This document shows, piece after piece, positions 10,946 to 61,643 of a stretch of DNA of 64,000 nt. Source of the DNA: Cryobacterium sp. PH31-O1 (lineage in GTDB: Bacteria; Actinomycetota; Actinomycetes; Actinomycetales; Microbacteriaceae); assembly GCF_030063455.1 (NCBI RefSeq), contig NZ_JASITB010000006.1:124001-188000 (forward strand), written 5' to 3'. A program made the position numbers and the translations under genes. The notes beneath the pieces are model-generated. The model was not told the origin of the DNA and did not search any database. It saw only the letters and a program-made list of their open reading frames with translations. Each line of letters starts with the position of its first letter. The stretch's first letter is position 1.

Positions 10946-11017
10946 TCCGCCATAGTGTAACGGCAGCACGGCAACCTTTGGAGTTGTTCGGTCCAGGTTC
11001 GAATCCTGGTGGCGGAG
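10946..11017 (+). tRNA. tRNA-Gln (anticodon TTG)
   Basis: A complete cloverleaf: acceptor TCCGCCA/TGGCGGA, anticodon stem GCAAC/GTTGT around loop CTTTGGA (anticodon TTG at 10978-10980), T-arm CCAGG-TTCGAAT-CCTGG. CCA is not encoded. It lies just upstream of glmU. Confidence 0.96.
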
Positions 11018-40750: not shown

Positions 40751-40827
40751 GCCCCCATAGCCCAATTGGCAGAGGCAGACGACTTAAAATCGTCACAGTC
40801 TGGGTTCAAGTCCCAGTGGGGGCACCA
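40751..40827 (+). tRNA. tRNA with UAA anticodon (Leu by anticodon), short variable region
   Basis: A 77-base gene with encoded CCA: acceptor GCCCCCA/TGGGGGC, anticodon stem GACGA/TCGTC around loop CTTAAAA (anticodon TAA at 40785-40787), T-arm CTGGG-TTCAAGT-CCCAG. The variable region is only ACAGT (5 bases), whereas bacterial tRNA-Leu normally has a long variable arm. The D-stem GCCC/AGGC has one mismatch. All other stems are intact, so it looks functional. Confidence 0.85.
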
Positions 40828-59701: not shown

Positions 59702-60937
59702 ATGCCAGAGACTACCCTCGCCGCACCCACCCTCGCCGAATTCGAGGCCGCGCGCGCAGTTGTCGCTCAGGTCGTCGATATCACCCCGATGGAGAGCTCG
59801 CGCTACCTCGCCGACGTACTGGGCGCGCCGGTCTACCTCAAGTGCGAGAACCTGCAGCGCACCGGTTCGTACAAGATTCGCGGCGCCTACAACCGACTGT
59901 CTAAACTCACCGATGCGGAGAAAGCACGCGGCGTCGTTGCGGCCTCGGCTGGCAACCACGCCCAGGGCGTAGCCTTCGCCGCGCGCGAGCTGGGCATCAA
60001 GGCCACCATCTTCATGCCGGTCGGCGTCGCCCTGCCCAAGCTGTCGGCCACCCGTGACTACGGTGCCGAGGTAATTCTGCGCGGCACGACCGTCACCGAA
60101 CCGCTTCTCGCCGCGGCCGAATACGCCCGCGAGACCGGCGCGATCCTCATCCCGCCGTTTGACCACGTGGATGTCGTCACCGGGCAGGGCACGCTGGGCC
60201 TCGAAATTCTCGACCAGATTCCCGACCTCGACACGGTCATCGTGCCCATCGGGGGTGGCGGACTAATCTCCGGTGTCGCCAGTGCGATCAAGCAGCGTGC
60301 CGCTCGGGACGGGCGCCGCATCCGGGTGATCGGGGTGCAGGCCGAGAATGCAGCCGCATACCCTCCATCCCTCGAGGCGGGTGAGGCCGTGATGATCAAT
60401 ATCCTGCCAACCATCGCAGACGGCATCGCCGTCGCCAAGCCCGGGCTGCTCAACTTCGAAATCGTGCGCGACACCGTCGACGAAATCGTCACCGTCAGCG
60501 AAGACGATACGGCTCGTGCGCTGCTCGTTCTGCTCGAACGCGCCAAGCTCGTCGTCGAACCGGCCGGAGCTGTGGCGGTCGCCGCCATTCTGGCCGGCAA
60601 GGTCACCCCGACCGGGCCGACGGTCGCCATCCTCTCCGGCGGCAACATCGACCCACTGCTGATGCAGCGCGTGATCAGTCACGGTCTGGCCGCGTCAGGG
60701 CGTTACCTCACGCTGCGCATCATGCTGCCGGACCGCCCCGGCCAGTTGGCGCGTATCTCCGAGCTGCTCGCCGAGGCGACCGCGAACGTCATCGAGGTGT
60801 TGCACACCCGGCACGGGGTCGGGCTGCGGATCAGCGAGGTCGAACTCGATGTCAGCGTTGAGACACGGGGGCCAGAGCACCGCCAGCACGTCGTCGACAC
60901 CCTGCGCGCGGCCGGCTACGACCCGCAGATCGACTAG
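59702..60937 (+). CDS. ilvA: Threonine ammonia-lyase (threonine dehydratase)
   Basis: A 411-residue PLP enzyme deaminating threonine to 2-oxobutyrate. The PLP lysine is Lys58 in GSYKIRGAY; ASAGNHAQGVA, PIGGGGLISGVAS and the serine/glycine-rich ILSGGN phosphate loop are present. A single C-terminal ACT-like domain (about 325-411; LRIMLPDRPGQLARISELL, VIEVLHTRHG) matches the catabolic/short type rather than the long IlvA with two domains. It can serve isoleucine synthesis. Confidence 0.94.
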   Translation: MPETTLAAPTLAEFEAARAVVAQVVDITPMESSRYLADVLGAPVYLKCENLQRTGSYKIRGAYNRLSKLTDAEKARGVVAASAGNHAQGVAFAARELGIKATIFMPVGVALPKLSATRDYGAEVILRGTTVTEPLLAAAEYARETGAILIPPFDHVDVVTGQGTLGLEILDQIPDLDTVIVPIGGGGLISGVASAIKQRAARDGRRIRVIGVQAENAAAYPPSLEAGEAVMINILPTIADGIAVAKPGLLNFEIVRDTVDEIVTVSEDDTARALLVLLERAKLVVEPAGAVAVAAILAGKVTPTGPTVAILSGGNIDPLLMQRVISHGLAASGRYLTLRIMLPDRPGQLARISELLAEATANVIEVLHTRHGVGLRISEVELDVSVETRGPEHRQHVVDTLRAAGYDPQID

Positions 60938-60995
60938 TCGCTGCCACTGCACCCCCTCGGAGACCTTTCGGAGACCTGCCGGAGTGCGCCGTGTG

Positions 60996-61089
60996 CGCAT
61001 AACTCCTGCAATTCGTTCCGGCCGACAAACACTTCCCCGGAATCTCGGGCAACTCTATTGCCGAGGCCGTAAATTGCAGGAGTTATGCG
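60996..61089. repeat. 94-nt cloverleaf-like inverted-repeat element between ilvA and greA
   Basis: An 18-bp perfect inverted repeat, CGCATAACTCCTGCAATT at 60996-61013 and AATTGCAGGAGTTATGCG at 61072-61089, encloses two smaller hairpins: TTCCGG/CCGGAA (61016-61042) and CTCGGGCAA/TTGCCGAG with one bulged G (61044-61065). The genes on both sides converge on it, so it might terminate in both directions, but its shape exceeds a simple terminator. It could be a REP/MITE-type element or a structured RNA. Confidence 0.8.
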
Positions 61090-61151
61090 TGATCGCGTGA
61101 TGCGCGGCGAGGCGCGGCGCGGCCGTTCGGGCCGGAACGCGACAGCAGAGG

Positions 61152-61643
61152 TCAGGCGCCGGTGAACGTCTCCACGTTGGAGATGTGCACGGTTATCTCC
61201 TTGCCGTTCGGCGTGGTGTAGCTCGTCTTTGCGCCAACCTTGAGGCCGATAATGGCTGCGCCGAGCGGGCTCTGCTCGCTGAACACGTCGAGGTCGCTGT
61301 TCGCGCCGATCTCGCGGCTACCGATCAGAAAGCGGCTCTCGTCACCGGCGATGGTGGCGGTGATGACGGTGCCGGGAACGACGATGCCGTTGCTCTCTGG
61401 AGCGTGACCGACCTCGGCGGTGCGCAGCAGCACGGTGAGGGTGCGAATGCGCGCCTCCATCTTGCCCTGCTCTTCTTTCGCCGCGTGGTAGCCGGCGTTC
61501 TCCTTGAGATCGCCCTCCTCCCGGGCGGATTCGATCTTCTTCGCGATGTCGCCCCGGCCGAAGTTGCTCAGTGTCGCCAGTTCCGCTGCGAGGCGGTCGT
61601 GGGCCTCCTGAGTTAGCCAGGTGACCGTTGTGTCGGTTGTCAC
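61152..61643 (-). CDS. greA: Transcription elongation factor GreA
   Basis: A 163-residue GreA. The N-terminal antiparallel coiled coil (about 10-80; RLAAELATLSNFGRGDIAKKIESAREEGDLKENAGYHAAKE) carries the acidic tip residues that reach the polymerase active site (EEGDLKENAGY), and the C-terminal FKBP-like domain has GAAIIGLKVGAKTSYTTPNGKEI. It rescues backtracked RNA polymerase. Start ATG/GTG at 61643 after GGGAG. Confidence 0.96.
   Translation of the reverse strand: MTTDTTVTWLTQEAHDRLAAELATLSNFGRGDIAKKIESAREEGDLKENAGYHAAKEEQGKMEARIRTLTVLLRTAEVGHAPESNGIVVPGTVITATIAGDESRFLIGSREIGANSDLDVFSEQSPLGAAIIGLKVGAKTSYTTPNGKEITVHISNVETFTGA

Follow-up and report, generated by a model that had tools for sequence, protein, structure and literature searches.

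In the 64,000-nucleotide stretch of Cryobacterium sp. PH31-O1 analysed here (the window), the spacer between an ilvA-like gene and greA contains a palindromic element that probably belongs to a nuclease-palindrome system as one of its dispersed, non-autonomous targets (Table 1). These bacteria appear to hold a partnership of nuclease and repeat, in which the likely partner is a single gene for an AbiEi-like/Vsr-like nuclease. Judged from sequence, this reading is favoured by the copies themselves and their spacing in helical classes of length, by arm types that pair with nuclease clades and differ where the clade differs, and by copies that are on average fewer and poorer in genomes without a close nuclease. 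The ilvA-greA copy itself is probably a passive resident of its 3'-3' spacer. No description of such a nuclease-palindrome pairing was found in the open-access literature, which was the scope of the search (subscription papers and preprints lay outside it).

Table 1. Parts of the palindromic element, its neighbours in the window, and the nuclease-like gene
Feature	Position	Strand	Remarks
Palindromic element	60996..61089		86-bp class; TAAC to GTTA, 61000-61085
Left arm, CGCATAACTCCTGCAATT	60996..61013	+	conserved half-site GCATAACTCCTGCAAWT; element profile
Left spacer	61016..61031		length kept, sequence free
Central core, CCCGGAATCTCGGG	61036..61049		86-class consensus CSCGNRA/TYNCGSG; putative nuclease site
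Right spacer	61054..61069		length kept, sequence free; mirrors left spacer in symmetrised profile
Right arm	61072..61089	-	inverted half-site; element profile
ilvA-like gene	59702..60937	+	left neighbour, points at element; PALP and ACT match, as in threonine dehydratase
greA	61152..61643	-	right neighbour, points at element; GreA match
Nuclease-like gene	G000:C11:86675-87568		298-residue product; on another contig than the window (G000, genome of the window)

Copies of the element and their genomic settings

The preliminary description had read a perfect 18-bp closing stem in a 214-base convergent ilvA/greA spacer (60938-61151, 3'-3'), and this holds: the arms are complementary at 18/18 positions with 58 nt between them, and the domain matches of both neighbours agree with the gene names. 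A greA match is present in 57/57 genomes of the genus. The core of the element is also given as CSCGNRATYNCGSG and its ends as GCATAACTCCTGCAA. A search with the gapped arm pattern gave one match in the window and none in 100 shuffles, and model R1, which has the window copy among its training copies, matches positions 60994-61091 with 81.8 bits.

How widely is the element dispersed? A query with the 94-bp sequence hit nine other places in this genome. Exact copies of the word TAACTCCTGCA in the genome number 39 (20 forward, 19 reverse), of which 38 form 19 pairs at 75-76 bp start to start; the partner arm of the last has one mismatch. In total, the genome holds 20 elements, distributed among seven contigs, and every exact arm belongs to one of them. 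Exact arm pairs are found in 44/57 Cryobacterium genomes. The preliminary description had proposed a dispersed element and had set beforehand, as the test that could refute it, a search of the genome and its relatives for further copies; with these counts the outcome "no second copy" clearly failed and the proposal stands.

Among 398 Microbacteriaceae genomes exact pairs are found in 13, namely 10/10 drawn from Cryobacterium and three of genus g92. The matches listed in a wider contig scan are mostly from Cryobacterium, with others from Lacisediminihabitans, Microbacterium and a few actinobacterial MAGs; one listed match from a Bacteroidetes MAG is probably unrelated. In viral contigs the arm pattern had 0 matches.

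The elements favour convergent spacers, are fewest in divergent (promoter) spacers and are rarely intragenic. Among 128 elements, 52 are in convergent, 55 in tandem and 15 in divergent settings, four lie inside genes and two are unclassified; among background spacers 120 bp or longer, 78/298 are convergent and 77/298 divergent. These counts come from a simple purpose-made gene caller, with elements less than 700 bases from a locus end dropped and element-bearing spacers included in the background.

Could the element be a bidirectional transcription terminator between convergent genes? The 3'-3' location and the over-representation of convergent spacers would suit one, and several element-free relatives have, by eye, a short GC-rich hairpin in the spacer. 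However, the bases directly after the stem (TGATCGCG on the + strand, CACACGGC on the - strand) form no U-tract, the tandem and divergent copies do not fit, and the strict arm sequence, the length classes and the pairing with the nuclease would all be left unexplained. A terminator is an unlikely explanation, although the element could stop transcription as a side effect.

The nuclease-like gene and its palindromes

Two copies of the palindrome, 1.1 kb apart in the genome of the window, enclose the nuclease-like gene alone; the neighbours of this gene encode a HAD hydrolase and glycerol kinase (glpK, an FGGY kinase). The genome has one closely matching homologue and two others about 30% identical. 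The product matches PF04480 (DUF559) over the cut-off, with PF18741 (MTES_1575) and PF13338 (AbiEi_4) below theirs, and PADLOC and NCBIfam gave weak partial matches only, to Hhe and AbiEi models. An AlphaFold model built on a 48-row alignment (mean pLDDT 92.1, pTM 0.87) resembles AbiEi 6y8q over 199 columns (E 1.9e-4, TM 0.55 of target) and the catalytic domain of I-Bth0305I, 3r3p (TM 0.67 of target, weak by its E-value of 0.044). The predicted fold thus suggests an N-terminal AbiEi-like DNA-binding part joined to a C-terminal Vsr/I-Bth0305I-like nuclease domain. Residues E195, D222, E232, D234, H239 and D248, invariant in 48/48 aligned homologues, are candidate catalytic residues. Homologues were found neither in plasmids (1e-20) nor in phages (1e-10).

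A half-site-like word, TGTGCATAACTC, lies between the nuclease gene and the nearest palindrome upstream (L154, L264, L265, L266) and is a possible operator. It is exact upstream of the gene in 4/8 aligned species, with near variants in the rest. Might the elements as a whole be operator sites of an AbiEi-like regulator, serving autoregulation and a small regulon, with neither cleavage nor mobility? The AbiEi-like part of the predicted fold and the TGTGCATAACTC word would both agree with this, and AbiEi and Rv2827c autoregulate via inverted repeats according to the available text of PMC7319586. Against it, elements are scarcest in divergent spacers (15/128 vs 77/298 in the background), palindromes are present 3' of the gene as well, and the candidate nuclease residues are invariant throughout the aligned homologues. 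A role as operators is likewise improbable.

Within the genus, arm type goes with nuclease type. The 57 Cryobacterium genomes divide into 22 with a clade-A nuclease (E <= 1e-100), 14 with a clade-B nuclease (47-56% identical) and 21 with neither. Palindromes lie beside the gene in 22/22 clade-A loci, and in 20 of these the arm contains AACTCCTGC; in the other two, G006 and G001, the arms read AACTCCTTC or AACTCCTCC (AACTCCTTC/CTCC), and among clade-A genomes only these two are without a canonical pair (0 each). All eight clade-B loci fetched from the 14 clade-B genomes have AAYTCAGGA arms. Judged by eye, the arm labels track the protein tree. HAD and glpK stand on both sides in 18/22 clade-A and 4/8 clade-B loci; because they flank both clades, one chromosomal slot is home to more than one arm type. 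The HAD-x-glpK slot (for example L281-L284 and L153-L160) holds nucleases about 50% identical, with different arms, in different Cryobacterium species.

Palindromes on both sides of the gene that share an 8-mer were found in 28/30 Cryobacterium nuclease loci, as opposed to 0/200 window controls and 10/200 swapped flanks. In other genera they are present in 30/59 loci, which by falling similarity are 11/22 (two with a truncated flank), 11/17 and 8/20; the 29/59 other-genus loci that do not have them include L161, L164, L178 and L180. Other genera have arms of their own, which solo copies elsewhere in the genome carry in several cases: AACTCATGC in 6/6 solo copies in G130, AACTCAGCC in 4/5 in G153 and AACTCCTGA in 3/3 in G264. 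Solo arms that differ from the local nuclease flank were seen in G259 and G076 (no exact match in either) and in one of the five copies in G153.

Distant paralogues in the genome of the window have both-sided palindromes in one of three cases. One nuclease paralogue, 33% identical (L285, G000:C12:36922-39029), has flanking palindromes with arms around GTGCATAACTGCGGAGA; since this gene is flanked by palindromes of its own, the genome may hold a second system.

Are elements kept where the nuclease is kept? A covariance model, with at most 10 matches scored per genome, found elements in 103/398 Microbacteriaceae genomes from 36/85 genera. Model matches are present in 35/38 genomes with a close nuclease (E <= 1e-50) vs 68/360 without one (p 9e-20; because the genomes are related, neither this p value nor those below refer to independent events). 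The training elements of model R1 came from 14 of these 38 genomes; minus those 14, matches are present in 21/24 close-nuclease genomes (p 7e-12), and minus Cryobacterium as well the counts are 15/18 vs 66/358 (p 2e-8). Three genomes (G081, G314, G399) have a close homologue and no model match, although the gene of G314 nonetheless has flanking palindromes.

Genomes without a close nuclease have, on average, fewer and more decayed copies, with exceptions. Among genomes with at least five arms, the median intact-arm fraction is 0.88 in clade A (20 genomes), 0.74 in clade B (8) and 0.40 without a close nuclease (18), the difference between the first and the last having p 9e-5. Median numbers of intact pairs are 14, 2 and 1, respectively. 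The exceptions that keep intact pairs without a close nuclease are G441 (15), G437 (8), G005 and G445 (7 each) and G017 (6). The orthologous ilvA-greA spacer, viewed in the best 30 of the 57 genomes (G440, on a short contig, is uninformative), has an element with at most one arm mismatch in six, namely five clade-A genomes and G017. Apparent decayed copies are present in G448 (truncated nuclease), G180 (no close nuclease) and G452 (clade B). In G013 and G452, both clade B, the same spacer has a palindrome of clade-B type, AATTCAGGAA (L228, L229).

Evidence for movement comes from copies that resemble each other. Seven pairs were hand-picked as the most alike; in five of the seven the likeness covers the element and ends near its ends (L086, L057, L019/L028, L039/L079, L058/L114), and in L163, and on one side in L094, it extends into the flanks, as in tandem duplication. 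Unrelated flanks are direct, if limited, evidence for the copying of whole elements. Neither a clean empty site nor a target duplication was found among the fetched loci. In the histogram of insert lengths zero does not stand out, with 15 comparisons between -10 and 9 and 131 between 90 and 99, and many element-free alleles also lack neighbouring bases. Interiors at different loci have a mean identity of 0.340 vs 0.318 in shuffles (3420 and 746 comparisons), and those of copies with common flanks reach 0.89. Since the interiors of non-orthologous copies are nearly random, recent copying must be rare.

Might the element be a plain MITE moved by a conventional transposase (DDE or other), and the nuclease gene a passenger? 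A MITE would share the size, the inverted ends, the mostly extragenic location and the few whole-element paralogous copies with unrelated flanks. It would not account for the position of the nuclease gene between copies, repeated from genus to genus, or for arms that track its clade; the interiors are unlike those of a recent master copy, and neither a target duplication nor a precise empty site was seen among the fetched loci. We consider a MITE quite unlikely.

Layout and helical spacing

The layout of the element is three-part: arm, spacer, core, spacer, arm. A profile of the 86/87 class (about 120 copies) and the 75 class (20 copies) places nearly all of the information in the arms and almost none in the next 16 bases; the invariance of the arms is partly due to selection, since the contig scan asked for exact arms. 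Less selected evidence on the arms comes from the word count in the genome of the window and from the genus-wide counts of arms and pairs. Information in the arm is near 2 bits at offset 10 and down to about 0.5 by offset 15; at spacer offsets 16-31 of the 86 and 87 classes no position exceeds 0.36 bit. The core follows the spacer in the 86/87 class, and the 75 class has a different centre. In the 75-bp class (for example L061 5090 and L086 7624) the same arms surround GGYC-like motifs that replace the CSCGNRATY core. Many of the other-genus elements of A1, though not all, show a core of similar type.

In the consensus the core is symmetric, yet its two halves vary independently, with no covariation, a pattern that suits protein half-sites and not a stem. 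In the 86-bp class the two halves avoid complementarity at offsets 15 and 41 from TAAC (z -3.3 and -4.3), which hints at a hidden polarity; when the asymmetry at offset 15 was examined in the element profile, no consistent polarity was found.

The length from TAAC to GTTA is 74-77, 84-88 or 96-98 bp in 253/259 distinct elements with YAAYTC arms from the fetched loci, and a control on reversed sequence gave 0 elements. Most of these loci were collected with patterns that admit a total of 71-101 bp or with a model spanning about 98 positions; lengths far outside 71-101 bp are poorly sampled, but the sampling did cover the gaps between the classes. Classes about one helical turn apart suit protein sites on duplex DNA rather than RNA, and steps of about 11 bp imply that both arms must occupy a fixed face of the duplex.

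Is there a structured RNA in the element? The preliminary description had seen a cloverleaf and suggested a conserved small RNA as one possibility. The predicted fold of the single copy is very stable (z -8.0 and -8.4 vs shuffles), and the arms covary across genera, with 65 double-changed cells vs 23.7 in shuffles; such covariation is, however, equally expected of two inverted protein sites. The inner hairpins of that description correspond to one predicted fold, but the other strand is predicted to fold otherwise, and the arm-free interiors of 130 sampled copies exceed shuffles in folding stability by a small margin (mean z -0.81). No covariation was found within the interior or the core. Covariation in the outer flanks (z up to 4) mostly disappeared when partners were shuffled within genomes, leaving offsets -1 and -2 (z 2.3-2.8).

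The element has no Rfam match at the gathering score; the sole gathering-score matches in the window are two tRNA genes (10946-11017 and 40751-40824). A structured small RNA or cis-regulatory RNA is thus very improbable, and the cloverleaf was rejected as not conserved, given interiors that are free and nearly unrelated across loci, lengths that step by about 11 bp, a three-part consensus with no paired changes inside, and copies in all gene orientations.

Proposed mechanism and comparison with known systems

How might a nuclease and its dispersed palindromes work together? In the nuclease-palindrome system, two protein monomers would bind the inverted arms, and bending of the intervening DNA would let both nuclease domains meet at the central core. 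Cutting at the core might then drive the spread and upkeep of elements, as proposed for RAYTs and REPINs. The available text of PMC7319586 reports that two AbiEi monomers bind a pair of inverted repeats and that the DNA is bent, and the mechanism proposed for REPINs in the available text of PMC3116915 has a RAYT dimer recognising a REP doublet. A span of 86 bp is long for two monomers of 298 residues unless the DNA is strongly bent, and this counts against the explanation.

A wider claim, for and against which we lean equally, is that there is a widespread AbiEi-DUF559 class, each member binding and cutting, in duplex DNA, its own family of phased palindromes of about 75-98 bp, which would both spread and be maintained in trans. 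Such systems would be REP-like and PD-(D/E)XK-driven, with recognition sequences that switch with the enzyme. DUF559-type proteins are common and their function is mostly unknown. If many of them pair with a readable palindrome, their DNA specificity could be read from the genome and then tested. Natural differences in arm and enzyme at one locus would make protein-DNA coevolution directly testable.

Several known systems share features with this one. The integron attC site was considered for the AAC/GTT ends and rejected on layout, with 20 copies over seven contigs and an outer box of GCATAAC; attC sites belong to cassette arrays with an integrase, and their boxes read RYYYAAC/GTTRRRY. The DUF559/REase_MTES_1575 proteins belong to the same domain family, with PF04480 over and PF18741 below the cut-off in our protein. 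They include VsrA of Caulobacter, a Vsr-like protein with a DUF559 domain that is linked to cytosine methylation (PMC12907096). That link sets VsrA apart, and the available text of its description mentions no palindromes.

The EDxHD/Vsr-like homing endonuclease I-Bth0305I resembles the nuclease in the modelled fold of its catalytic domain (3r3p), from which sequence-specific cutting may be expected. Unlike homing endonuclease genes, the nuclease gene here lies between two whole sites, with the recognition site uninterrupted, and there are about 20 sites per genome. The AbiE type IV toxin-antitoxin system shares the two-domain antitoxin fold of AbiEi (6y8q match). It differs in that the gene in the genome of the window stands between the HAD hydrolase and FGGY kinase genes with no adjacent DUF1814 toxin gene, a C-terminal nuclease is fused to the protein, and the sites are dispersed through the genome.

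The closest parallel in organisation is REPIN-RAYT, in which, according to the available text of PMC3116915, dispersed extragenic palindromic doublets with conserved ends accompany a single-copy gene beside cognate copies, and the type of repeat follows the enzyme. Likewise, the system described here has one single-copy gene with cognate palindromes on either side, and further copies of these palindromes are scattered outside genes. By Pfam and predicted fold, however, its enzyme is an AbiEi/Vsr-like nuclease and not an HUH Y1 tyrosine transposase. Its element, 75-98 bp long, is built around a central core, falls into helical classes of length and has about 20 copies, whereas REPINs can reach hundreds. 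Because the enzymes are unrelated, the element is not a member of the REPIN-RAYT family. To our knowledge, the coexistence of a single-copy enzyme with a dispersed palindrome family has so far been known from REPIN-RAYT; if the present reading is true, the nuclease and its palindromes would be a second, independent answer to it.
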